A stretch of 40,015 nucleotides of DNA, taken from contig PLDK01000012.1 in NCBI GenBank assembly GCA_003135135.1, positions 1 through 40,015 on the forward strand, in the 5' to 3' direction. Source of the stretch: Deltaproteobacteria bacterium. GTDB lineage: Bacteria > Desulfobacterota > Binatia > Binatales > Binataceae. Numbering within the stretch: position 1 is the first letter of the stretch; each line of letters starts with the position of its first letter. This document shows, in pieces, positions 24,139 through 39,234 of this stretch. A model generated the notes under the pieces. That model was not told where the DNA came from, made no database searches, and worked only from the letters and a program-made list of their open reading frames with translations. A program made the translations under genes and the position numbers.

Positions 24139-25599
24139 TTAGAAGGCGTAGATAATGTTGGCGTCCAAGGTGTCCTGGCCGCGCCATAGATGCTGCTGGC
24201 CGGTCGCTGGGTCGACGAAATTGTTATTGGTGAACACGTTCTCATCCGAATTGTCATGCCGGTATTCCAGACGTGCGATCAGTCCCGTCACTTCGGGTAT
24301 CTTGTAGCTCAACGTCTGGGTGATCTCCCACACCGTCTGGCCGGTGCCCGTCGTGCGCGCTCCGTCCTTGTCCTGGAAGAATTCGCCGCGCGTGGCAGAC
24401 TCGAGCGAAGGCGTGAAGTCGTACACCAGGTACTGCGCCATTCCCTGCCACGACGCACTGTGACCGTTGATCACAGGACCTGACTCGGACGCGTACAGGT
24501 ATTCGGTCTGAAGCGTCAGGTTGGGTATGAACGACGGCTTCCAGGTCGCGATCCCATCGATCGTGCCCAGATTGGAATCGGACTTGCCTATCAGGTTCGG
24601 CCCCCACATGCTGTTGACCACGAAGCTCAGCGACTTGTCCTTGTTGTTGAGTGTCAACGCGCCTTCATAGTTGGGGCCGCCGTTGTTGGCTGCCGCGGGA
24701 TCATCCCATCCGTTGTTGAGGCCGGCCGTGGCAGAAACGTAATCGTTGAAGGTGTAGCCCGCGCGGATGCCGGTATGAGTCAGCGGTTCGCCCAGGGTAA
24801 AGAGCAGGCCGCGGCTCTCGTTGAAGTTCAGATTGTTGTACGTGTTGATCGTTTCCGCGCCCATCATCGTCACGAAACGCCCTGCCTGCAGGCTGATGCC
24901 CGATCCGATCGGCGCAGTATAGGTCAAGTAGTACTGCGTCGGATCGAACCATTGGGGACCAACGTGCGAGGTGTTCGAGTAGTGCGTGGCAGTCGAAATC
25001 GAGTTCGCGACCTGGCCGAAGTTGAGATCGGTCACGAATCCAACCGTTCCGTCGCGCTCGATGTGCAGGTTGCCCTGCGTCAGCTGAAAGCCATCCTCGT
25101 CCCAGGCGCGGTACACGTTGACGTTGGAGTTGGGCTGATTGAAGTTATGCTCATAGCCCGCATCAACCAGCCCGTGGACGCTGATACCAAGATTGTCCGA
25201 CAGATCTTTCTTGATGTCGCTGACATCCTTTTCGACCAGGCCCACGTGCTCGCCAATCGTGGCCGGCTTCGCGCCAGCCTGTGCCGGCACCGCGACCGTC
25301 ATCGCCGCCTCTATCTTTTTGACCTCGCTGGTTGTGTCGTCGGTCTGTTTCTGCAGATTGCTCACCTGGCCAGACAGCGCGTCGAGCCGCTGCTGCTCGC
25401 TAGTGTTGGCGGCGACAGTGGTTGTGGTCGTGGTGACCATGTGGTGGTGATGTTTCTTCGTGGTCGTTGTCGTTGTCGCTGGATCTGCGCTCGATGGATC
25501 TGCCGCCCAAGCATTCGCATTGCACAGCAATCCAATCACTGCGACGCCGGCAATCAGGTAAAGCCTGGCAGCGGCCCGGGTCGTTTTCCTTCTGTTCAC
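24139..25599 (-). CDS. OmpL-like outer-membrane beta-barrel porin
   Basis: This 486-residue protein has a signal peptide cleaved near AWA (residue 32) and a Thr/His-rich low-complexity linker (two runs of six Thr, KKHHHH) at about 40-62. A short coiled coil follows (QQRLDALSGQVSNLQKQ), then a long series of amphipathic beta strands ending in NIIYAF with terminal Phe, the outer-membrane insertion signal. The YYLTYTAPIGSGISLQAGRF block is typical of the OmpL-like porin-2 family. The start is GTG 25599 behind GGAGGAGGAG. It follows the NtrC-type regulator on the same strand and may be part of its regulon. Confidence 0.85.
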   Translation of the reverse strand: MNRRKTTRAAARLYLIAGVAVIGLLCNANAWAADPSSADPATTTTTTKKHHHHMVTTTTTTVAANTSEQQRLDALSGQVSNLQKQTDDTTSEVKKIEAAMTVAVPAQAGAKPATIGEHVGLVEKDVSDIKKDLSDNLGISVHGLVDAGYEHNFNQPNSNVNVYRAWDEDGFQLTQGNLHIERDGTVGFVTDLNFGQVANSISTATHYSNTSHVGPQWFDPTQYYLTYTAPIGSGISLQAGRFVTMMGAETINTYNNLNFNESRGLLFTLGEPLTHTGIRAGYTFNDYVSATAGLNNGWDDPAAANNGGPNYEGALTLNNKDKSLSFVVNSMWGPNLIGKSDSNLGTIDGIATWKPSFIPNLTLQTEYLYASESGPVINGHSASWQGMAQYLVYDFTPSLESATRGEFFQDKDGARTTGTGQTVWEITQTLSYKIPEVTGLIARLEYRHDNSDENVFTNNNFVDPATGQQHLWRGQDTLDANIIYAF

Positions 25600-25758: not shown

Positions 25759-27090
25759 TCAATCGAGATGATACCGTCTGCGCTTGCGCCACAACGTTGC
25801 GATGCCGATGCCAAGCGTTGCGGCGGCATCTTCGAGCGTTGGCGCCAACGCGAGCACGCGCCGGATGTGCTCCTGCTCGACCTGCTCGAGCGTCGATTGC
25901 TCAGGCAGGTTTCCGTGCGGCGCGCTCGATTGGAAAAGGATGTCCGGCAGATCTTCCTTGGAAAGCGTTGCGCCGCGGCTCAGCACGACTGCACGCTCGA
26001 CGGCATTGCGCAGTTCGCGGATGTTGCCAGGCCATGAATAGGCGAGCAGAGTTTTGCGAGCTTCGTCCGAAAACTGCAATCCGATGCGCCGATTACGTGC
26101 GGCAGCCTCGACGAGAAACATTTCGGCGAGCGGCAACACATCCTCGGGCCGTTCGCGCAAGGCGGGCATGCGGAGGTTGATGACATTTAGTCTATAGTAT
26201 AGGTCGCTGCGAAACCGCGCGGCGTTGATCTCCTGCGGAAGATTGCGGTTGGTTGCTGCGATGATACGGGCATCGACTGTGATGGTCTGCTCTCCACCGA
26301 CGCGCTCGAAACGCTCATCCTGCAAAAAGCGGAGGAACTTGGATTGCAACGCGGGCGATAGCTCCGAGATTTCGTCGAGGAATACCGAGCCGCCATTTGC
26401 CGCTTCCAGGCGCCCGGGCTTGTCTTTGATCGCCCCCGTAAAAGAACCCTTCATGTGCCCGAAGAGCTCGCTTTCCAGCAGATGCTCCGAAAGCGTCGTG
26501 CAATTGACGATGACGAACGGCCGATCTCGGCGTGAACTCCATGCGTGGATCTGCCGCGCGAGAACATTCTTGCCGGTGCCACTTTCGCCAGTCAGCAGGA
26601 TTGTCGCGTCGCTCGACGCCGCAGCATAAGAAGTCTCTATCAGGGAGCGAAATTCATGGCTCCCGGTTGTTAGCAGCGGTACGCCATCGATGGAATTGCG
26701 AAGGGCGCGATTCTCAGTACGCAGTTCCTTTACTTCGAGCGCGCGCTCGACCGCGTGCTGAATCTGATCGAGCGAGAATGGCTTGGTGATGTAGTCGTAA
26801 GCGCCGGCTTTCATCGCCGCAACAGCATTCTGGATCGTGCCGTACGCAGTCATCAGGATTACGATCGTGGTCGGAAATTTTGCTTTGATCGCGTTGAGCA
26901 GCTCGAGGCCGTTCATCTCGGCCATTCGCCAATCACTGAGAACGAGATCGAACGCTCCGTCGCGATCCATCACGGCGAGTGCCTCGCGTCCGCTTTCGGC
27001 TATGGCAATCTCGTGCTCCCGGGAACCCAAGAAGCGACCGAGGGTCTCGCGGATGTTTTTTTCATCGTCAACGACGAGGAGTTTTGCCAT
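25759..27090 (-). CDS. NtrC/AlgB-type sigma-54 response regulator
   Basis: This 443-residue protein has an N-terminal receiver with acidic pair DDE at 8-10, phosphoacceptor Asp53 in LSDWRM and Lys103. A central AAA+ domain has Walker A GESGTGKN at 168-175, sigma-54 contact loop GSFTGA at 215-220 (a common functional variant) and Walker B VFLDE at 236-240. The C-terminal Fis-type helix-turn-helix AAATLGIGIATLWRKRRRY resembles AlgB. It begins directly after the kinase stop. In other bacteria Kdp is controlled by the OmpR-type KdpE; an NtrC-type regulator here implies sigma-54 control, matching the -24/-12 sites upstream of the kdp genes. Confidence 0.92.
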   Translation of the reverse strand: MAKLLVVDDEKNIRETLGRFLGSREHEIAIAESGREALAVMDRDGAFDLVLSDWRMAEMNGLELLNAIKAKFPTTIVILMTAYGTIQNAVAAMKAGAYDYITKPFSLDQIQHAVERALEVKELRTENRALRNSIDGVPLLTTGSHEFRSLIETSYAAASSDATILLTGESGTGKNVLARQIHAWSSRRDRPFVIVNCTTLSEHLLESELFGHMKGSFTGAIKDKPGRLEAANGGSVFLDEISELSPALQSKFLRFLQDERFERVGGEQTITVDARIIAATNRNLPQEINAARFRSDLYYRLNVINLRMPALRERPEDVLPLAEMFLVEAAARNRRIGLQFSDEARKTLLAYSWPGNIRELRNAVERAVVLSRGATLSKEDLPDILFQSSAPHGNLPEQSTLEQVEQEHIRRVLALAPTLEDAAATLGIGIATLWRKRRRYHLD

Positions 27091-28155
27091 CTAGATGCAC
27101 CGCGAGTGAGGTAGCTGGATAACAAAGGTACTCCCTTTTGTGGAGGAATCCAGAAATATCCTGCCGCCGTGCGCTTCGACTATCTCTTTGGCTATGGCAA
27201 GGCTGAGTCCTGCGGACCCATCGTCAAGCCCTTCCGGCTTCCATTGGGGACCTTGTTCGAGAAGGACGTTGCGAAGCTCGAGCGGTACTCCGCGCCCTGA
27301 ATCGGAAACTGATATTCGTAGCGATTGTCCGTCCCGGTCAGCTGACACCTCGACTGATCCGCCCTCTGGAGTGAAGCTGATCGCATTGGCGATTAGCCTC
27401 GATAGCACCCACGAGAGCTTCACCGGATCCCCATAGCAGTCCAGCGCTCTCCCAACATGGGTCCTGAGCGCGACTTCCTTCGGCGCGGCCTGCAGCAAAA
27501 ACTTTTTCGTAACTGAAGTCACGAGCTTGGCGAAATCAAACGTGACGTTCCGGACCGCGATCGATGTGGTCTCATTGCGAGTGACGTTCAAAAGACCATC
27601 GGACAAATCGCGGATGCGAGCCAAATCCTCGACCACCGTCTCGATGATTTCGTTCTGCTTCGGATGGGACGTTTTTCTCTGAAGCAATTCGATTGCGAGC
27701 GACAGCGATGTGAGCGGCGTTTTGAGCTCACTCGAAAGCGTTGCGATCAGGTTCGCGCGTGCGCGCTCTTTATCACGAAGATAAGTCAAGTCATGAAGAG
27801 TGATCATCGTGCCGAACGGAGTGCCATCATCGAGCCGCAGCCGTGCAGGCTTGAGTAGGTACGTATGATCGCGGCCACGAACGTGCAGACTTACTTCTGC
27901 CTGCTGTTCGCCTCGTGGATAGCCAAGAGCGCGCCGAAGGGCGGCCCGGACATTCACGTAGTGGCTATTGTTGTCTTCGAGGTCGAAGAACGAACGGCCC
28001 AGGATTTCGTGCCGATCAATACCAAGTATCACTGCGGCTTGCTCATTGAGATGAATAACAACGTCGTCGAGGTCTATCAGAATCGCTGCGACGTCGAGGT
28101 TTTCGAGGATTGCCGCCGTCCTGCTGTTTTCATCATTAGCGGCTGTGGCTTCCAT
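27091..28155 (-). CDS. PAS sensor kinase lacking the phosphoacceptor histidine
   Basis: This 354-residue protein has a PAS domain at about 15-125 (VAAILIDLDDVVIHLNEQAA) and no membrane segment. The HisKA helix reads LIATLSSELKTPLTSLSLAI: Ser142 (codon AGT at 27730-27732) stands where histidine is expected in S-H-E-L-K-T-P-L-T. The HATPase part keeps the N-box Asn (LIANAISFTPEGG) and G1 (VSDSGRGVP), but G2 reads AGLSLAIAKE instead of GLGLAIAKE. The layout resembles KinB partners of AlgB. It may be a pseudokinase, an ATP-binding switch, or phosphorylated elsewhere. ATG 28155 follows GAGG. The frame extends to 28524 without support. Confidence 0.88.
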   Translation of the reverse strand: MEATAANDENSRTAAILENLDVAAILIDLDDVVIHLNEQAAVILGIDRHEILGRSFFDLEDNNSHYVNVRAALRRALGYPRGEQQAEVSLHVRGRDHTYLLKPARLRLDDGTPFGTMITLHDLTYLRDKERARANLIATLSSELKTPLTSLSLAIELLQRKTSHPKQNEIIETVVEDLARIRDLSDGLLNVTRNETTSIAVRNVTFDFAKLVTSVTKKFLLQAAPKEVALRTHVGRALDCYGDPVKLSWVLSRLIANAISFTPEGGSVEVSADRDGQSLRISVSDSGRGVPLELRNVLLEQGPQWKPEGLDDGSAGLSLAIAKEIVEAHGGRIFLDSSTKGSTFVIQLPHSRCI

Positions 28156-28183
28156 ATATTGGGAACCTCGCCAAAGTGTTGAG

Positions 28184-28217
28184 CGGACCCCGGGGCGTTC
28201 GCCGCACCCGAGGTCCG
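28184..28217 (-). promoter_or_regulatory. Stem-loop between kdpC and the sensor kinase gene
   Basis: CGGACCCCGGG pairs with CCCGAGGTCCG (one mismatch) across a 12-nt loop in the 71-bp gap. There is no T-tract after it. It may act as a partial terminator or RNA-processing site setting lower expression of the regulators than of the pump. Confidence 0.5.
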
Positions 28218-28226
28218 CGCTTCGGT

Positions 28227-29243
28227 CTATTGAGGCTGCCCGTACTTGTTTCTCAATGTGAGGTTGAGTTGCAGCACGTTGACGAACTTTTCGCCCGCGA
28301 GCCCGCCGAACGGCGCCCATGCGTCCGCCTCCACCATCTGCTCGATCTCGCTGCGAACCTGTTTTGGATCGCGCTTGGTATCGGAGGCCCATTTCTGGGA
28401 AATGCGACCCAATTGATACTCGGCGTTCTGCAAGCTGATATGAGGATCGAGGCCGGAACCCGACGCCATTACCATGTCGGCCGGGACATCCTGCAGGGGC
28501 GCATCGGCATGCTCCTGACGCCACATGTCGAAGAAAATCGACTGGATATCCGAACCCTGGTTAACGGGCTCAATTGCGGTGACTGGTTTCCCGTCTGCGC
28601 TCTGGTGAGAAACGGCCGAGGGGAACTTGCCCGGATTGTCTTTCGAGAACGTTTCGAAAAATAGCACCGCCAGATCAGCAGCCTTTGGATCCGGTGTGCC
28701 GGGATTGTCCTTCTTCCACTTAGATACTTCGTTCGGATGTTTCTTCGTCCAGTCGTCAACGTATGCGCCGTGTGTTGGATCGGCACTCACCCAGCCTTGC
28801 GCGAGTTCATTGTGAGCATCGTCCCACTGCGCAACGATGTGCGGCTGTCCGCCGAACTTGTCCTGCTGAAACCAGGCCTCAATATCCGGCGCCACCTGCT
28901 GACCCTTTTTCGGGCCGTCGCTGTATACAACGATCGGACCAAGCGAACGCGCGACACGATCGCGCAGAGCGTAGTTCGAAGCGGAAAGGTTCGAGGGTGC
29001 CGACGCCGAGGCGTCGTATGACGCTGCCGACGGCCTCGGTTGAAAATACTCGTCCTTGGTGAACGGCTGCGCGATTAGCAGCGAGCCGACCGGCTTGCCG
29101 TCCGGGCCATTGACGATGCTGCCGTTGGCCTGGAAGGGGAAGAACACCTGGCCAATTACCCACAGCACAGATGGATATATTATGCAGATTATCGGGATGA
29201 CGAACAGGAAGAGCAGAAAACTCTTTGAAAAATAGCGTGACAT
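28227..29243 (-). CDS. kdpC: Potassium-ATPase subunit C, long form
   Basis: The protein has one N-terminal membrane helix (SFLLFLFVIPIICIIYPSVL) and then a periplasmic domain. Canonical motifs are present: ANGSIV, SLLIAQPF, YFQPRPSAASYDA, DMVMASGSGLDPHISLQNA, and the C-terminal VNVLQLNLTL. It is 338 residues, against about 190 in E. coli. The extra segment, about residues 115-250 between the Asn/Leu-rich region and DVPADMV, is hydrophilic and contains DIEAWFQQDKFGGQP and WTKKHPNEVSKWKKDNPGTP. KdpC stabilises the pump and aids ATP binding; the insert's role is unknown. It lies 24 bp after kdpB. Confidence 0.92.
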   Translation of the reverse strand: MSRYFSKSFLLFLFVIPIICIIYPSVLWVIGQVFFPFQANGSIVNGPDGKPVGSLLIAQPFTKDEYFQPRPSAASYDASASAPSNLSASNYALRDRVARSLGPIVVYSDGPKKGQQVAPDIEAWFQQDKFGGQPHIVAQWDDAHNELAQGWVSADPTHGAYVDDWTKKHPNEVSKWKKDNPGTPDPKAADLAVLFFETFSKDNPGKFPSAVSHQSADGKPVTAIEPVNQGSDIQSIFFDMWRQEHADAPLQDVPADMVMASGSGLDPHISLQNAEYQLGRISQKWASDTKRDPKQVRSEIEQMVEADAWAPFGGLAGEKFVNVLQLNLTLRNKYGQPQ

Positions 29244-29267
29244 GGCTTTGCCTCTCGATGCCTCCCG

Positions 29268-31433
29268 TTAAGAAATCAGGTGTGCCGCGACCATGATCAT
29301 GTCGATCAGCTTGATTCCGGCGAACGGCAGAATGACACCGCCCAAACCCCAAACCAGCAGGTTTCGACGCAGCAGCGCATCGGCACCCAGCGGGCGATAC
29401 CGCACTCCGCGCAGAGCGACCGGAATGAGTAGTGGAATGACTATCGCGTTGAAGATAACCGCCGAGAGAATAGCTGACGTTGGCGAGTGAAGGTGCATGA
29501 CGTCCATCACCTTCAGCCACGGCAATGTGCCGGCGAACAGCGCAGGCACGATCGCGAAGTATTTCGCGACATCGTTGGCGATCGAGAATGTCGTCAGCGC
29601 GCCGCGGGTCATCAGCAACTGCTTGCCGATTTCAACGACCTCGAGCAACTTGGTCGGGTTGCTGTCGAGGTCGACCATGTTGCCAGCTTCTTTGGCGGCC
29701 TGGGTGCCCGAGTTCATCGCGAGACCAACGTCGGCTTGCGCCAGCGCCGGGGCATCATTGGTGCCATCACCGATCATCGCGACGAGCTTGCCGTCGGCCT
29801 GCTCCTTGCGGATGTAAGCGAGCTTCGCCTCGGGCGTGCACTGCGCGACGAAGTCATCGACGCCCGCTTTTTTCGCGATCGTCGCGGCGGTGAGCGGATT
29901 GTCGCCGGTTATCATAACGCTGCGCACGCCCATCCTGCGCAGACGCTCCAAGCGCTCGCTGATGCCGGTTTTCAGAATATCGGACAGTACGACGACACCG
30001 ACGATATCGGCCCCATCGGCGACGGCGAGCGGGGTAGCCCCCTGAGAACCGATCGCTTCTACCGTTGATTCAAGTTGCGCTGGAACGGTCCCGCCCAGAC
30101 GCTCGACGAAGCGTATTATGGCCTCCGGTGCACCCTTGCGAATTTGGCGGCCATCCGGAAGATCAATGCCGCTCATGCGAGTTTGCGCGGAAAATGCGAC
30201 GAACGCCGCGCCGTTTGGAGCGGTTACGTCGGCCGGAGTTCCACCCCGATCGAACTGGAGTTTGACTATAGTCTTTCCTTCGGGGGTTTCATCGGCGATA
30301 GAGGCAAGCGCGGCGAGACGTCCGAGCTGTGCAGCAGTATATTTTCCGACCGGCAGAAAATCAGTCGCGTGCCGATTACCCATTGTGATCGTGCCGGTCT
30401 TGTCGAGCAGCACGACATCGATATCACCCGCGGTCTCAACCGCTTTGCCGCTCTTGGCGAGAATGTTCGCCTGAAGGGCACGGTCCATGCCGGCGATACC
30501 GATCGCGGCTAGCAACGCACCGATCGTCGTCGGAATCAGGCATACAAGCAGCGCCACCAGGGTAGGAACGTCCGTGCCGAGGCTCTTCAACGGTTCAGTG
30601 ATTCCGAGATAGCCCATCATGTAGATCTCGGCGTTGAGAGACATCGGCCATAGCGGCACGACAACGATTAGAAAGATTAGCGTGAAAGCAGTGAGCACGA
30701 GGCTCAGTGCGATTTCGTTCGGAGTGCGTTGACGAACCGCACCTTCGACGAGAGCAATCATGCGATCGAGGAACGACTCGCCGGTGGCAGCCGTGATTTT
30801 CACAATGATGCGATCCGAGAGGACCCGCGTCCCGCCCGTCACGCCCGAACGGTCGCCACCCGACTCGCGGATGACGGGGGCTGACTCGCCGGTTATCGCG
30901 GACTCATCGACCGACGCGAGGCCTTCAATAATCTCGCCGTCGCCGGGTATGATCTGGCCGGCTTCGACCGCGACCCGGTCACCGGGTTTCAGATCGGCGG
31001 ACGAAACCTCCTCGATAATATCCTTACCCTTGAGCCGGTATGCCGGTGTGTCCTTGCGCGTCTTACGGAGCGATTCAGTTTGGGCACGTCCGCGAGCTTC
31101 TGCGAGTGCAGTGGCAAAGTTGGCGAATAGCACCGTCAACCAGAGCCAGAAATCGAGTGCGATGAAGTAGGTAATCGGAACCTGGCTCGCTGACTGGCTA
31201 AGAGCCGCCTGTATAACGAACAGGAACGTCAATACCGCGCTGATTTCCACTACAAACATGACAGGGTTGCGCCACTGAACGTCGGGCCGCAGCATCAGGA
31301 ACGCTTCCTTGATCGCCGGACCCACCAGCTCCGGCGCGAACAGCGCCCGGGCTCGCGATCGCCGCGGCGGCACCGGTGCCTGGGGCGTGATTTTCAGTTC
31401 AGATGGCATAGGTATGTTCTTTACAGCTTCCAT
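29268..31433 (-). CDS. kdpB: Potassium-ATPase subunit B (P-type ATPase)
   Basis: This 721-residue membrane protein hydrolyses ATP to drive potassium uptake. The phosphorylated Asp lies in DKTGTIT near residue 345. The TGES loop reads [17 protein letters not shown], and the hinge motif is [19 protein letters not shown]. Seven or so membrane segments fall at expected places. All catalytic motifs are intact. It lies between kdpA copy 1 and kdpC with short gaps, so it is co-transcribed. Confidence 0.97.
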
Positions 31434-31475
31434 TCTCGAAGCTCCCTCGACTAGTTCATCTCGTTTGCGATTGAC

Positions 31476-33299
31476 CTATCCGCCGAACGGCATCGGACCC
31501 AAGTGATCCGCGACCGGGCCGAGGAAGGCCACAGGTAAGAACAGCAGCGCCCCGATGATCACGATGGTACCGAGCAAGAGCCAGTAGAAGGTCATAGTGT
31601 CATCGCGCATTGTACCGAGCCCATATGGCGCCTCCTTCTTCATTCCAAGGAAGGCGGCCATCGCAATCGGTGCCACTATTGGTAGGTAGCGACTGAACAG
31701 CATGACCAACCCCGCCGCGATATCCAATTGCCGGCTGGTTGGAGCGGGGGTGGGATTTGCATTAAAGCCCCACGTATCGCCCAAGCCTTCGAAACCCGAG
31801 CCATTGTTCGCGGATGCCGAGCTGAACTGATACATAACCTCGGAGAAGCCGTGCGCGGCGGGATTGAACTCCGCCTTGGTGCCCCAGCTTGTGGCCGCGA
31901 ATAAACCGGTCGGTCCAAGAATCATCAGCGGATGCACGAGAAGTGCGATAACCGCCAGCTTGACTTCACGCGCACCGACCTTGCGGCCGAGATATTCCGG
32001 CGAGCGCCCCACCATCTGGCCTGCTATGAATACGCCAATGATGAGGAAGAGCAGCAGATTAATCATGCCGACGCCCTTGCCGCCGAATACACAGTTCAGC
32101 CACATGCCCACCATCGGCGATAGCCCGGTGAGAGGATTGAGGCTATCGTGGGCGCAGTTCACAGCACCGCAAGTGACTGCGGTAGTGAGTGCGGCAAAGG
32201 TGGGACCGGCAACGGTGCCGAATCGCAGTTCCTTGCCTTCGAGGTTACCCAGATGTTGCTCAATCGGCAGACCCGCGACTTGAGGAATCGTCAATTCGCG
32301 GAAACCACCCTTTGCGGTTGCACTCGGAATCTTGTAGGTGACACTGGGCGGATGGGCGGTTAGTCCAGGATTCGGCTTTAACTCGAAATAGATAGACCAC
32401 GCGATCATGCCGATCATGAGCGTCAGCATGACTCCGTAGATCACAATCGCGTGCCTCATTTTTCGCAGCATCCGGCCGAACATCAGAACAAGGGTGAACG
32501 GAAACATCATCATGTCGAAGCAGGTGATGAAGTTCGTCCACGCGCTCGGATTCTCATACGGATGCGCGGAGTTGGCGCCAAAGAATCCACCGCCATTGGT
32601 GCCGATCTGCTTGATTGGAATCATTGCGGCGACCGGGCCAAACACGATGGTCTGTTCCTTGGCCACACCCTTGTCGTCAGTCCCCATCGCCCCCGGTTCA
32701 AGAGTGGCGACCTGAATTGTGCTCTTAAACGTCATCGGCATGCCCTGCTGGATGAAGAGCACGCCGGACAGGATCGCGGCCGGCACAAACATGTAAATCA
32801 GCACGCGCCACATATCGATGAAGAAGTTGCCGACCTTCTTCTCGCCACGGAAAGCGCGGATGATTGCTGCAAGTGCACAAAACCCAACCGCGGCGGATAT
32901 GTACTGGTTGGAAATGGTGAAGAAGATCTGGCTGAAATTTGAGAAGTGAACGTCGCCCGAATAGTCCTGCAGGTTTGTATTGGTCATGAAGGACGCGACG
33001 GAATTGAATATTGTCGTCGGCGCCAACATGCCGAGCTGACGCGGATTTAGCGGCATAATCGGTTGAAGCGCCAGCACCACGTAGCCCCAGACGAACAGTA
33101 TCACGTTGAAAATCAGGAGTGCGGCCGTGTACTGCTTCCAGTCTTGAGGACCGCTGTCGATCTTGCGCTCGATCCAGCCAAATCCTGGCAGCGGCCGATA
33201 CCGCCCCTCCATGATCCAAACAGCGAATTTGCTAAGTGGAATGGATACTAAAACCGCAGCGACGATCAGAGCCGCCGGTAGGAGCCAAAGATGCAACAT
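31476..33299 (-). CDS. kdpA: Potassium-ATPase subunit A, copy 1
   Basis: This 607-residue channel-like subunit selects potassium. Filter segments are intact: TNTNLQDYSGD, GTNGGGFFGANSAHPYENP, CGAVNCAHDSLNPLTG and SANNGSGFEGLGDTWG. About ten hydrophobic helices are visible. It is about 50 residues longer than the 557-residue E. coli protein, mainly in the periplasmic loop around residues 190-230 and 300-350. It directly precedes kdpB. Compared with copy 2 it shares most filter sequences but differs in loops, so the duplication is old. Confidence 0.96.
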   Translation of the reverse strand: MLHLWLLPAALIVAAVLVSIPLSKFAVWIMEGRYRPLPGFGWIERKIDSGPQDWKQYTAALLIFNVILFVWGYVVLALQPIMPLNPRQLGMLAPTTIFNSVASFMTNTNLQDYSGDVHFSNFSQIFFTISNQYISAAVGFCALAAIIRAFRGEKKVGNFFIDMWRVLIYMFVPAAILSGVLFIQQGMPMTFKSTIQVATLEPGAMGTDDKGVAKEQTIVFGPVAAMIPIKQIGTNGGGFFGANSAHPYENPSAWTNFITCFDMMMFPFTLVLMFGRMLRKMRHAIVIYGVMLTLMIGMIAWSIYFELKPNPGLTAHPPSVTYKIPSATAKGGFRELTIPQVAGLPIEQHLGNLEGKELRFGTVAGPTFAALTTAVTCGAVNCAHDSLNPLTGLSPMVGMWLNCVFGGKGVGMINLLLFLIIGVFIAGQMVGRSPEYLGRKVGAREVKLAVIALLVHPLMILGPTGLFAATSWGTKAEFNPAAHGFSEVMYQFSSASANNGSGFEGLGDTWGFNANPTPAPTSRQLDIAAGLVMLFSRYLPIVAPIAMAAFLGMKKEAPYGLGTMRDDTMTFYWLLLGTIVIIGALLFLPVAFLGPVADHLGPMPFGG

Positions 33300-33330: not shown

Positions 33331-33411
33331 TTAGAACCATTCCGGGCGCACCAGCGCTACGGTCAGATAGACAAAAAGAAAGACGCAGACAGCGGCGGTA
33401 ACGTAAATCAT
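33331..33411 (-). CDS. kdpF: KdpF membrane peptide
   Basis: This 26-residue peptide, a single hydrophobic helix, has the KdpF pattern LFVYLTVALVRPEWF at its C-terminus. It lies 32 bp before kdpA copy 1. KdpF stabilises the KdpABC complex in E. coli. It is too short for ordinary gene callers. Confidence 0.85.
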   Translation of the reverse strand: MIYVTAAVCVFLFVYLTVALVRPEWF

Positions 33412-33523: not shown

Positions 33524-33595
33524 AGTTCGTGCCTCCACCGATCATCAAATCATCCGTCCGTCCAGATGAGACGGCAGTGATCACCTGCCCCTATC

Positions 33596-33610
33596 GCAAG
33601 GAGTATGCCC
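33596..33610 (-). promoter_or_regulatory. Sigma-54-like promoter for kdpF-kdpA1-kdpBC
   Basis: On the minus strand GGGCATACTCCTTGC matches the -24 GG and the whole -12 TTGC with exact GG-N10-GC spacing. It lies 72 bp upstream of the 31-residue peptide ATG. Confidence 0.65.
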
Positions 33611-33880: not shown

Positions 33881-35692
33881 CTAGCCGCCAAAGGGCAGCG
33901 GTCCGAGATGTTCCGCGACGGGGCCAAGTGCCGCGACAGGCAGAAACAGCAGCGCGCCGATAATCACGATCGTACCCATCAAAAGAAAGGCGAATGTCGG
34001 AGTGTCGTCGCGCATGGTCCCTAATCCGAACGGCGCGGCCTTCTTTGCGCCCATGCCCGCGGCGAGGGCGATGGGAGCGATAATCGGAATGAAACGGCTG
34101 AGGCAGATGACTATGACTGTCGCGATATCCCATGGACGGCTCGTCGGGGCCGGACTGGGATTGTCGTTAAGACCCCAGGTATCGCCGAGACCTTCGAAGC
34201 CCGAACCGTTGTTGGCGGACGCCGATGAGAACTCGTACATTATCTCGGAGAATCCGTGGGGTCCCGGATTGAACTCGGCCTTCTGCCCCCAGCTAGTAGC
34301 CGCAAAAATACCGGTCGGCCACAGAATCATGATCGGATGAATGAGTAGGCCGATCATCGCGAGCTTCATCTCCCGGGCGCCGATCTTTTTGCCTAGATAC
34401 TCCGGCGTGCGACCGACCATCTGCCCCGCGACGAACACACCGATGATCAGAAAGACGAGCATGTTGATCATGCCGACGCCCTTGCCGCCATAGATGCAGT
34501 TCACCCACATGCCTGCCATAGGCGAGATAGCGGCCATCGGGTTGAGGCTGTCGTGAGCGCAGTTGACGGCGCCGCAGGTGACGTCCACGGTCATTGCGGC
34601 AAACGTCGCGCCTGCCGAGGTTCCGAAGCGCAGCTCTTTGCTTTCGAGGTTTCCGAGATGTTGATCGACCGGGAGTCCCGCGACCGCCGGCAGGATCACA
34701 GGTTTCTTCCCACTAGCAGTGGCGATCTCGAAATGTCGTTCCTGCGGATGCGCGGTGAGGCCTGGATTGGGCTTGTAGGTGTCGAAATAGATCGACCAGA
34801 CTATCGTGCCGATCATCAACCCCATCATGACAGAGAATATGACCCAAGCGTGTTTCAATTTGTGGAGCATTCGCCCGTACATCAGGACGAGCGCCATTGG
34901 GAACAGCATCATTCCAACGCTTGAGAGGAAGTTCGTCAGCGCGGTTGGATTCTCGAAGGGATGTGCTGAGTTAGCGCCGTAGAAACCGCCTCCATTCGTC
35001 CCGAGCTGTTTCATTGGAATAAAGGCGGCGAGCGGACCGACGACGATTGTCTGCTGCCTCGCCTGGCCACTATCAGTTGTTCCCATCGCCGCGGGTTCCA
35101 GAGTGGGGACGACGTTCGCAGACTTGAAGGTCATCGGCATGCCCTGCTGGAGGCAGATCAACGAAAAGACAAAGCCGATAGGCAGGAACATGTAGATCAT
35201 GACGCGCCACATGTCGAGAAAGAACGAGCCGACCTTGTCAGGACCAAAGCGAAGGGCCCTTATGATCGCGGCGAGTGCACAGAAGCCGATCGATGCCGAG
35301 AAAAAGAAATTCGCGATCATCACGAAGATCTGCGTGAAGTTGGAGAAATGGACGTCACCGGACCAGTGCTGGAGATCGGTATTGGTACTCAACGACATCG
35401 CGGCGTGAGCCATTGTCGTCGGCGCCAACATCCCACGGTGCAATTCATTGAGCGGCATCCACGGCTGAATCGCCATGATCACATAGCTGTAAGTGAAAAG
35501 GAGCAGGTTGAAGACGAGCAATGCTACTGTGTACTGCTTCCAATTCTGATTGCCGGTGTTGAGCCGATCCTCGAACCACCTCAGGAAGCCTGGAGCCTTG
35601 TACTCGCCGTTCATGATCCAGGCGAGATAGCGGCTGAGCGGAACCGCAAGGAGAGCGGTTGTTAGAAGCATCGAGATGGGGAGCAGCCACAT
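33881..35692 (-). CDS. kdpA: Potassium-ATPase subunit A, copy 2
   Basis: This 603-residue paralog of copy 1 keeps all filter segments: STNTDLQHWSGD, GTNGGGFYGANSAHPFENP, CGAVNCAHDSLNPMAA and SANNGSGFEGLGDTWG. It has its own upstream sigma-54-like promoter and no kdpB of its own. It is separated from the main kdp operon by 360 bp. It may swap with copy 1 on the same KdpBC, giving a pump with different affinity, or be induced under other conditions. Both copies share the same extra length over E. coli KdpA. Confidence 0.95.
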   Translation of the reverse strand: MWLLPISMLLTTALLAVPLSRYLAWIMNGEYKAPGFLRWFEDRLNTGNQNWKQYTVALLVFNLLLFTYSYVIMAIQPWMPLNELHRGMLAPTTMAHAAMSLSTNTDLQHWSGDVHFSNFTQIFVMIANFFFSASIGFCALAAIIRALRFGPDKVGSFFLDMWRVMIYMFLPIGFVFSLICLQQGMPMTFKSANVVPTLEPAAMGTTDSGQARQQTIVVGPLAAFIPMKQLGTNGGGFYGANSAHPFENPTALTNFLSSVGMMLFPMALVLMYGRMLHKLKHAWVIFSVMMGLMIGTIVWSIYFDTYKPNPGLTAHPQERHFEIATASGKKPVILPAVAGLPVDQHLGNLESKELRFGTSAGATFAAMTVDVTCGAVNCAHDSLNPMAAISPMAGMWVNCIYGGKGVGMINMLVFLIIGVFVAGQMVGRTPEYLGKKIGAREMKLAMIGLLIHPIMILWPTGIFAATSWGQKAEFNPGPHGFSEIMYEFSSASANNGSGFEGLGDTWGLNDNPSPAPTSRPWDIATVIVICLSRFIPIIAPIALAAGMGAKKAAPFGLGTMRDDTPTFAFLLMGTIVIIGALLFLPVAALGPVAEHLGPLPFGG

Positions 35693-36179: not shown

Positions 36180-36551
36180 TCAGTGCGCGGCGACCAATAC
36201 CGGCGTCATTGGAATGGAAGTGGCATGAGTCGAGCGGACGATAGCCGTATCAGTGACAGCCGCCGTATGGTCGAGCCTCAAGATGGCGATGCTTTCTGGC
36301 CGAACGCTTTTGATCAATTCGTGCACGATTCGCGTAGCGGCATCGTCGGCGACGGTGAGGTCGAGCTTGAGGCGCTCGACCAGGTCCAGGACAAACTCGC
36401 TACCGCAGTAGAACCGTTGGCTCTCACGCCTGCTCGAGCCGGGTGTCCGACGAACTTCGGTCACGTCAAAATCGGACAAATTCAAGCCTTCGGCGGCTTC
36501 GGTAAAACGGTCGAGGGCGGATGGTTCGATTATTAATTCGATTCTCTTCAT
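36180..36551 (-). CDS. PII-like signalling protein beside kdpA
   Basis: This 123-residue protein opens with KRIELIIEPSALDRFTEAAE and DVTEVRRTP, the PII ferredoxin-like core. The T-loop is short: RRESQRFYCGSEFVLDLVER aligns with ELYRGAEYMVDF of GlnB, with Tyr46 kept and the uridylylated Tyr51 replaced by Phe. The B-loop TGxxGDGKI is absent, so classical ATP/2-oxoglutarate binding and uridylylation are unlikely. The start is ATG 36551 with AGGTGAAG. PII-like proteins often gate the transporter encoded next to them, so control of Kdp is a plausible inference. Confidence 0.75.
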   Translation of the reverse strand: MKRIELIIEPSALDRFTEAAEGLNLSDFDVTEVRRTPGSSRRESQRFYCGSEFVLDLVERLKLDLTVADDAATRIVHELIKSVRPESIAILRLDHTAAVTDTAIVRSTHATSIPMTPVLVAAH

Positions 36552-37612: not shown

Positions 37613-37661
37613 TCGGTGCTGTCCGCTCAGAAAACTCCTTGGCAGCTTTGATGATTGCAGG

Positions 37662-37676
37662 TGGCACGCTTGATGC
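37662..37676 (+). promoter_or_regulatory. Sigma-54-like promoter for the KdpD-type gene
   Basis: TGGCACGCTTGATGC matches consensus except the first T of TTGC and closely matches the prs-rtcB promoter at 13803. It lies 59 bp before ATG 37735. Confidence 0.65.
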
Positions 37677-37734
37677 TGACTTGGAAGGTATGTCCGGCAG
37701 CATCCCATCCCAATCGCGTTTACGAGCCGACTCG

Positions 37735-38214
37735 ATGGCGCAGCCGAATCTGAGGCTGGCCGAGGGTGACCACAGAAATCACCTCCGGGCGATCGTTCAA
37801 ACTCCGGATGAATCACCGAAGACGGCGGTGATGGCCTGCCTAACTGCCCGTAGCTCCGGTAACAGCGAACTGTTGCGCAAGGCCTCCGCGGCGGCGCGCG
37901 AACATGGCGCCGAGTTCTACGCGGTCATAGCCAATTCGCCGCACACCCGATTTGGAAAGGCTCGGGTTCGTGAGCTGATCGACGACATAATCCTCGCCAG
38001 CTACTTCGGCGCGAAGATCGTACGGCTCGAGTCGTCCGACGTGGTCGGCGAGCTACTGCAGTTAGCAGGGCAATCAAACGTGGGCCGGATTTTCATTACT
38101 CGAAACCGGCCGGCGCGGTTCTCTCAACTACTTGGGCGCTCTGTTTATTCCGACCTGTTGGTCCGTGGCAAGGGCTTCCGCATCGACGTTGTCGGGTTTG
38201 AACGCAGGAATTGA
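37735..38214 (+). CDS. Free-standing KdpD-type universal-stress domain protein
   Basis: This 159-residue protein matches the USP-like domain of KdpD: KTAVMACLTARSSGNSELLR, AREHGAEFYAVIA, DDIILASYFGAKIVRLESSD, VGRIFITRNRPARFSQLLGR, and a final SDLLVRG strand. The kinase, membrane and N-terminal KdpD portions are absent. In KdpD this region binds the second messenger c-di-AMP in some Gram-positives or senses ion state. The start is uncertain: an earlier frame to 37639 overlaps the promoter-like site. It is followed 3 bp later by the activator gene, so they are co-transcribed. Confidence 0.75.
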   Translation: MAQPNLRLAEGDHRNHLRAIVQTPDESPKTAVMACLTARSSGNSELLRKASAAAREHGAEFYAVIANSPHTRFGKARVRELIDDIILASYFGAKIVRLESSDVVGELLQLAGQSNVGRIFITRNRPARFSQLLGRSVYSDLLVRGKGFRIDVVGFERRN

Positions 38215-38217
38215 CTT

Positions 38218-39234
38218 TTGAGTAAGGGGCCGACGGTGGACAAAGCACGCGAAGATCCGAATCGTCTGATGTCGCGCCCCGCTGATGATTTCGTTCCCCT
38301 GCTCGAATCGAACGATCCCGTGATGCAGCGACTGCTGGAGAAGGCAAAGCGCGCAGCCGCGAGCGACGCGACGATTCTCCTCACCGGCGAGAGCGGCACG
38401 GGCAAGGATGTTCTGGCGCATCAGATCCATCGATGGAGCCCTCGCGCCGAATGTCCTTTCGTGACCGTCAACTGCAGCACTCATTCTGAACATCTTATCG
38501 AGAGCGAGTTGTTCGGCCATACGCGCGGTGCTTTCGACGGCGCAATCAAGGATGAGCCCGGACTCCTCGAAGCCGCCCACGGCGGATCCATCTTCCTCGA
38601 GGAAATTGCAGATCTGACTGCACCCCTTCAGACCAAACTTTTGCACTTCATCAAGGAACAGACGTTCGAAAGGATGGGGAGTGAAAACACGATAACAGTT
38701 GACACTCGAATCATCGCCGCGTCGAACCATGACCTGGTTTCGGAAGTTGCGGCACGACGATTCCGCGAGGATCTATACTATCGACTTGGCGTGATCACTT
38801 TGCGAGTTCCCGCCTTGCGGGAGCGTCCGGGCGACGTTCTTCCCTTGACGATTCGAATGCTTGCCGGCTCCACCGTCCGTAACCACCGTCCGGGTCTGCG
38901 TCTTTCTTCCGAAACATCATCGGCACTGATGCGTTATCGATGGCCAGGAAATATCCGTGAGTTGCGCAATGTCATCGAGCGCGCGGTCGTTCTGTGCCCG
39001 AGCGAGGTTGTGACACCTGAGTATCTGCCTGACCTGCTTTATAACGACCCATGCTCGACCGCTGCCCCATCGACAAGTCTCGATGACATCGAGCGCGAAC
39101 ATATCATCCGCGTTATGGCGGAAAGCCCGACGCTTGAAATCGCCGCAAACAAGCTGCGAATCAATGTCTCCACGCTGTGGCGCAGGCGCAAATGCTACGG
39201 ACTTGATTCAACTCCCGATGTCCCGAGAGATTAG
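38218..39234 (+). CDS. Orphan sigma-54 activator with altered GAFTGA and Walker B
   Basis: This 338-residue protein is an AAA+ plus Fis-type protein without a receiver. Walker A GESGTGKD at 57-64 and the arginine-finger region RFREDLYYRL are intact. The sigma-54 contact loop reads GAFDGA at 104-109 (Thr to Asp), and Walker B reads IFLEE at 125-129 (first acidic residue Glu instead of Asp). The HTH AANKLRINVSTLWRRRKCYG resembles AlgB and the paired regulator at 25759. The GAFTGA threonine is needed for sigma-54 contact in characterised activators, so it may bind DNA without activating, as a repressor or co-regulator. It starts at TTG 38218 behind AGGA. Confidence 0.85.
   Translation: MSKGPTVDKAREDPNRLMSRPADDFVPLLESNDPVMQRLLEKAKRAAASDATILLTGESGTGKDVLAHQIHRWSPRAECPFVTVNCSTHSEHLIESELFGHTRGAFDGAIKDEPGLLEAAHGGSIFLEEIADLTAPLQTKLLHFIKEQTFERMGSENTITVDTRIIAASNHDLVSEVAARRFREDLYYRLGVITLRVPALRERPGDVLPLTIRMLAGSTVRNHRPGLRLSSETSSALMRYRWPGNIRELRNVIERAVVLCPSEVVTPEYLPDLLYNDPCSTAAPSTSLDDIEREHIIRVMAESPTLEIAANKLRINVSTLWRRRKCYGLDSTPDVPRD

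Follow-up and report, generated by a model that had tools for sequence, protein, structure and literature searches.

A putative pseudo-histidine kinase lacking the phosphoacceptor His, encoded in a kdp operon of a Binataceae bacterium

The regulatory pair described for kdp operons is KdpD/KdpE, and KdpE of E. coli is an OmpR-type regulator. NtrB, whose partner is a sigma-54 regulator of the receiver-AAA-HTH type, has itself a PAS-HisKA-HATPase architecture. Natural pseudo-histidine kinases are exemplified in the papers cited here by DivL of Caulobacter, which has a HisKA-type core with the His replaced, binds phosphorylated DivK, binds an ATP analogue weakly and has neither kinase nor phosphatase activity (PMC4211667). 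In evolved C. glutamicum, ChrS carries a laboratory frameshift in its ATP domain, such that one of two paralogous systems has lost its kinase while the other keeps it (PMC9491836). As for the residues that matter in HisKA kinases, work on CrdS shows that H+1 is needed for kinase but not for phosphatase activity, and H+4 for phosphatase but not for kinase activity (PMC3510030).

We analysed a stretch of 40,015 nucleotides (contig PLDK01000012.1 of assembly GCA_003135135.1, hereafter called the window) from a member of the Binataceae. The original prediction placed at positions 27091-28155 a sensor kinase with Ser instead of the phosphoacceptor His, followed by a well-preserved regulator. These coordinates are correct and the gene is on the minus strand, since the plus-strand reading is full of stops and the minus-strand reading gives 354 residues and then a stop. 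The ATG start matches that of the orthologues in two other genomes (G034 and G025). The relevant features are as follows.

27091..28155, minus strand: pseudo-histidine kinase, 354 residues (PAS 17-126, DHp/HisKA 133-196, HATPase_c 242-350)
27730..27732, minus strand: codon 142, AGT, Ser replacing the phosphoacceptor His (His in 43 of 43 alignment rows of the His-bearing group)
27727..27729, minus strand: Glu143 (H+1), retained in the alignment with relatives
27718..27720, minus strand: Thr146 (H+4), retained, the residue used by HisKA phosphatases (PMC3510030)
27397..27399, minus strand: codon 253, Arg replacing the first N-box Asn, from the alignment
27250..27261, minus strand: F-box remnant LEQG (residues 299-302), FERF or similar in most relatives
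27202..27204, minus strand: codon 318, Ser replacing a G2-box Gly, from the alignment
25759..27090, minus strand: response regulator, 443 residues (receiver, sigma-54 AAA+, Fis-type HTH), starting directly after the stop of the pseudokinase gene

Pfam analyses assigned HisKA (42.5 bits, cut-off 26.9), HATPase_c (71.6 bits, cut-off 26.4) and PAS domains to the protein, the latter also above cut-off and confined to a single stretch. The H-box, TLSSELKTPLTSLS (LSSELKTPLTS), carries the predicted Ser (codon 142, AGT, at 27732-27730). In the G2 box, GSAGLSLAI, Ser318 stands for Gly, as had been claimed. The ATPase is otherwise less intact than predicted: G1 (DSGRG) and the second N-box Asn, Asn257, are retained, but N-box residue 253, Asn in 41 of 43 His-bearing relatives, is Arg, and the second aromatic position of the F-box, residue 302, Phe or Tyr in 42 of the 43, is Gly. 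The protein thus has the domains of a functional HisKA kinase but neither its phosphoacceptor His nor an intact set of N, G1, F and G2 boxes, and it has at H+4 (T146) one of the two residues, Thr or Asn, of HisKA phosphatases. Chance as the reason for the missing His was rejected, as 17 of 18 HisKA matches in this genome have it and the pseudokinase is the sole exception. Fold prediction with five sequences yielded a mean pLDDT of 52 (65-84 for the PAS domain alone), the model of the ATP domain being uninformative. DivL (4q20) is among the matches with solved structures.

The pseudokinase gene lies behind two kdpA genes, kdpB and a long kdpC, and the regulator gene follows it without a gap.

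28227..29243, minus strand: kdpC, long form, 338 residues, of which the C-terminal 188 were subjected to the Pfam scan
29268..31433, minus strand: kdpB (TIGR01497 above cut-off)
31476..33299, minus strand: kdpA beside kdpB (TIGR00680 above cut-off)
33331..33411, minus strand: small membrane-like ORF, 26 residues
33428..33523, minus strand: small hydrophobic ORF, 31 residues, with similar ORFs in G002, G006 and G025
33595..33610, minus strand: sigma-54-like -24/-12 element, GGGCATACTCCTTGCG, weak when taken alone (equalled in 16 of 300 shuffles), with a similar site in G002
33881..35692, minus strand: second kdpA, sharing 66% identity with the copy beside kdpB

Resemblances to the described systems are partial. 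As in NtrB/NtrC, a PAS-HisKA-HATPase protein is encoded beside a sigma-54 receiver-AAA-HTH regulator, but NtrB (GlnL) is a His-bearing kinase, while the present protein has no His and its gene belongs to a kdp operon; no NtrB model is among the 25 NCBIfam families listed out of 77. As with KdpD/KdpE, the pair is encoded in a kdp operon, but the KdpD sensor domain (PF02702), which is fused to the kinase in KdpD, is absent from the pseudokinase and stands alone in a second kdp locus, the His is missing, and the regulator is a sigma-54 activator of the NtrC type rather than of the OmpR type. In DivL, an alphaproteobacterial protein with several PAS domains that acts on DivK and CckA, a conserved Tyr takes the place of the His (Ala in Magnetospirillum), whereas the pseudokinase and its orthologues have Ser, Asn, Asn or Glu, with a single PAS stretch in the former, and the gene is in a kdp operon. 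Unlike evolved ChrS, it is natural, present in four genomes and devoid of the His itself. A literature search over titles and abstract openings, in which subscription journals are thinly covered, yielded no paper on such a protein in a kdp operon.

To place the protein, we used a family sample of 41 genomes, in which 44 matches were collected at E<=1e-85 and the H-box could be read in all of them. It contains His in 40 proteins and lacks it in four, namely those of the window (Ser), G002 (Asn), G034 (Asn) and G025 (Glu). Thirty-eight of the 40 His-bearing proteins are in open frames of at least 464 residues, and the shorter two (G059 and G062) reach contig ends. A scan with two peptide patterns confirmed five loci, comprising the three orthologues, one relative at 49% identity and one remote kinase. 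Among 395 genomes drawn evenly from the phylum, with at most five candidates scored in each, nine matches at E<=1e-50 were found in seven genomes, all of the same family, and the eight besides that of the window have His. Matches at 1e-64 and 1e-77 in two genomes from a different family within the class likewise have His.

In a tree of 47 rows, from which hits containing stops, spans shorter than 290 residues, rows contained in another and five named records (L082, L084, L086, L087 and L088: a 10-base stretch, three duplicate orthologue records and one remote kinase) had been removed, the four His-less proteins form one clade with a support of 100/100 for the whole protein. They do so again, at 100/100, with the PAS and linker alone, which indicates that the grouping is not due to shared decay of the ATP domain. 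The trees conflict on the nearest relative of the window proteins, which is the G034/G025 pair for the kinase (94/75) and G002 for the regulator (86, quick tree).

A check proposed with the original prediction was whether homologues in the same locus have His and an intact G2 box. In G002 and G025 the gene lies behind kdpA, kdpB and kdpC, and in G034 the contig ends upstream of it in what appear, by eye, to be the last codons of kdpC; all three orthologues lack His, and none retains the full set of G2 glycines. Ser itself is not conserved at these other kdp loci. The possibility of a sequencing error or a recent single mutation, which the draft status of the window genome (51 contigs) might have favoured, is in our view negligible, given that the His is missing at the same place in three more genomes, with the codons AAT, AAT and GAG, within one clade. 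These are drafts as well, with completeness and contamination of 85 and 4 (G002), 88 and 8 (G034) and 93 and 5 (G025), and the G002 kdpB is found in three pieces in different frames, indicating that this draft has frameshifts, real or not.

The frame is open in all four pseudokinases and is under purifying selection. For the window/G002 pair, dN/dS is 0.170 (bootstrap 0.123-0.226), an overall value that mixes segments of different history because dS is uneven along the gene (PAS 0.50, DHp 0.29, ATP domain 2.4), every segment alone being below 1; for the G034/G025 pair it is 0.253 (0.182-0.337). The core of the His-bearing kinase has a dN/dS of 0.114 in the window/G002 species pair. That the protein might be a decaying duplicate without function is improbable: its ATP-site motifs are lost stepwise and it changes faster than the regulator (76% as opposed to 88% identity between the window and G002), but the four open frames and the values well below 1 in two independent pairs argue for maintenance. 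On the evidence of the sequences, the His-less form is old and selected rather than a sequencing error or a recent mutation, and with the His replaced here and absent across orthologues under selection, the protein qualifies as a pseudo-histidine kinase, an identity that we regard as well supported. Silent-site divergence from G002 across 25759-33299 (minus strand, compared with L033) is far greater in kdpA, kdpB, kdpC and the pseudokinase ATP domain than in PAS, DHp and the regulator, and this unevenness looks like recombination within the locus.

Alignment of the four proteins with the 43 His-bearing rows revealed unequal losses, given below in the order window, G002, G034, G025.

Position 142 (His in all 43 others): S, N, N, E
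H+1: E, E, E, A
H+4: T, T, L, T
First N-box Asn: R, T, S, T
Asn257: N, N, N, I
G1 glycines: GG, GG, GA, AA
F302: G, gap, N, D
G2 (316-318): GLS, ALG, ALD, GFE

The absence of the His from all four, together with an ATP site eroded to different degrees, fits a scenario in which the His was lost first, probably in the common ancestor of the four genomes, and ATP binding slowly and unequally afterwards. The codons at position 142 in three of the four (AGT in the window, AAT in the two orthologues with Asn) would allow a path from His through Asn to Ser by single steps. Retention of G1 and Asn257 in the window and G002 could be taken to mean that the protein is still a kinase in another way, using a different phosphoacceptor or supplying ATP binding as one half of a mixed dimer. 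We consider this very improbable, as position 142 is not constant (S, N, N, E), none of the four proteins retains the first N-box Asn or F302, and G025 has neither G1 nor Asn257.

The regulator was predicted to have an intact Asp53, and it does, along with D8, D9, T81 and K103. An orthologue with 77-88% identity occurs in exactly the four of 41 genomes that have the pseudokinase, some of these genomes being incomplete, and among the other regulator matches listed none exceeds 67% identity. In a quick tree the four regulators group together as a clade (SH-aLRT 95), which a long-branched regulator of G025 (L047) joins (SH-aLRT 98). This co-occurrence spans two genera and draft genomes, and the regulator adjoins the pseudokinase in the window and G002 only. 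In G034 the pseudokinase gene is followed by a gene on the opposite strand, and in G025 by 377 bases without a regulator up to the contig end. The G034 regulator follows instead a kinase-gene remnant (L109 1909-2037; 37 residues matched in a 73-codon frame, no G2 glycine pair), and that of G025 a C-terminal kinase end at a contig start (L110 1-123; 39 residues matched, intact GLGLAI). Searches of the G025 and G034 genomes did not reveal the remaining front part of a regulator-linked kinase. In G025, where the contig end truncates this kinase gene, the regulator may be preceded by a linked kinase that perhaps has His. The presence of another kinase gene in front of the regulator in both genomes makes the co-occurrence weaker evidence than it seemed at first.

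A second kdp locus of the window genome, on contig C38, offers a comparison. There, kdpA, kdpB and kdpC are accompanied by genes for a free-standing KdpD sensor protein (PF02702, 314 bits), a His-bearing kinase of HAMP-PAS-HisKA-HATPase architecture (HAMP at 22.7 bits, below the Pfam cut-off of 25) and a regulator that shares 63% identity with the one in the window. The DHp domains of its kinase and of the pseudokinase share 38 of 71 residues. In this locus (L034 6394-9338) KdpD is split, with a separate sensor protein and a HAMP-PAS kinase paired with a sigma-54 regulator. In G006, of the same genus, kdpA, kdpB and kdpC are 93-96% identical to those of the window and are followed by a kinase of the His-bearing type and a regulator, and the pseudokinase was not found in that genome. 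This type of pump thus occurs with either kind of sensor.

Two features suggest that the pseudokinase and its regulator have diverged from the sister system. The first is the interhelical DHp stretch (157-176), which is 20 residues long in all four pseudokinases; of the 43 His-bearing relatives, 42 have 21-24 residues there and one has 19. The second is an acidic receiver residue 15, present in the four regulators and in one of 35 others.

Our preferred reading, held tentatively, is that of a selected pseudo-histidine kinase, of the DivL kind by function, that acts on the regulator without phosphorylating it, perhaps holding or dephosphorylating the regulator-phosphate. The protein is related to the family's longer kdp sensor kinase with His, lacks the part that the latter has before the PAS domain, and probably arose by duplication. 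The DHp bundle would dock on the receiver of the regulator. This docking would lower the pool of active regulator by dephosphorylating or holding its phosphorylated form, a direction that we infer. The phosphate may come from another donor, such as a small phosphodonor or the second-locus kinase with its His, and the PAS domain may tune the strength of the effect. The regulator would in turn drive the extra kdp operon from a putative sigma-54 promoter. Of the original prediction, the pseudokinase part is supported by the His-less orthologues and the dN/dS of 0.170, and the suggested signalling by binding or as a phosphatase is compatible with the data.

Published work bears on this mechanism in both directions. 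The H371A variant of CrdS loses kinase and only part of its phosphatase activity (PMC3510030), and the DHp domain alone suffices as a phosphatase in NtrB and EnvZ, as cited in the same paper. The Thr needed by HisKA phosphatases (PMC3510030) is kept in three of the four His-less proteins. Against our preferred reading count the loss of both activities in PleC H610A (PMC3510030), the absence of phosphatase activity in DivL as reported (PMC4211667), the distance of the regulator gene from that of the pseudokinase in both G034 and G025, and the promoter, weak in the window and not found in G025. Leu at H+4 in G034 also means that not every member of the clade can use the usual phosphatase chemistry.

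We rank holding or dephosphorylation of the regulator-phosphate first, as the likeliest candidate. Next would come a helper role akin to those of DivL or ChrS, which we see as possible but unlikely, in which the pseudokinase pairs with, or brings the regulator to, the His-bearing kinase of the second locus, raising or steering cross-phosphorylation. That kinase, with its His and the 38 of 71 identical DHp residues, is present in the same genome, and the pseudokinase persists in G025 and G034 without an adjacent regulator, both genomes having a His-bearing relative. In evolved C. glutamicum, phosphotransfer from HrrS to ChrA is promoted by the pseudokinase ChrS, a paralogue of HrrS; the two proteins heterodimerise in their native forms, but truncated ChrS showed no interaction (PMC9491836). 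The DHp interhelical length (20 as opposed to 21-24) and receiver residue 15 also point to insulation rather than assistance. Third would stand phosphate-free binding, in which an anti-activator grips the regulator depending on a PAS ligand, irrespective of receiver phosphate. Losses of G1 and Asn257 in G025 and partial loss of G1 in G034 make a need for ATP across the clade unlikely, and a receiver-less paralogous activator (38218-39234) shows that such activators occur in the locus. This version is nonetheless distinctly unlikely, because D8, D9, D53, T81 and K103, retained in all four regulators, would be free to drift if phosphate were irrelevant.

Regarding the promoter, the sigma-54-like element is upstream of two small membrane-like ORFs that precede kdpA, as is a similar one in G002; by its position and look, the 26-residue ORF (33331..33411) may be KdpF-like. 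Scanning 19 upstream stretches, with single-base shuffles as a control, revealed sites scoring 11 of 12 in nine of them, including those of the G002 kdp operon and of the receiver-less activator of the window, and the best site of the window kdp operon scores 10 of 12. The same scan found none in G025. When the entire window was scanned at slightly lower stringency, 18 sites reached a score of at least 10. The genome has an RpoN gene.

The window system offers orthologues at unequal stages of ATP-site loss, an adjacent regulator whose phosphorylation residues are intact and a His-bearing sister system, which makes the order of losses and the role of a His-less DHp domain directly testable.

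The gene at 37639-38214 (plus strand) encodes a protein that resembles, over its residues 64-190, the Usp-like end of the family's stand-alone KdpD protein (27-41% identity); a Pfam scan gave no match for it, and its orthologue is on G002:C149 (62%, dN/dS 0.39). It directly precedes the gene at 38218-39234 (plus strand), a sigma-54 activator without a receiver that is 57% identical to the regulator over AAA and HTH and has an orthologue on the same G002 contig (G002:C149; 79-80%, dN/dS 0.18). Pieces of such activators are also found behind the long kdpC in G016:C37 and G002:C352, their far sides being cut by contig ends. It is conceivable, if doubtful, that a dismantled KdpD/E system runs the extra kdp operon, made of a His-less, ATP-losing, receiver-binding core, the lone Usp-like part of KdpD and the second, receiver-less sigma-54 activator, in which case pump expression would be set by protein binding and dephosphorylation with no dedicated kinase.

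The window has two kdpA genes in tandem for a single kdpB and a single kdpC. A P-II-like protein (36180-36551, minus strand; PF00543, 26.6 bits, cut-off 25) adjoins the operon, with relatives on G002:C149 and on the G002 contig that bears the pseudokinase. Behind the regulator, a BBP2-type porin (PF07642) is encoded at 24139-25599 (minus strand), and in G009, G021 and G032 genes for related porins separate kdpC from the kinase gene.
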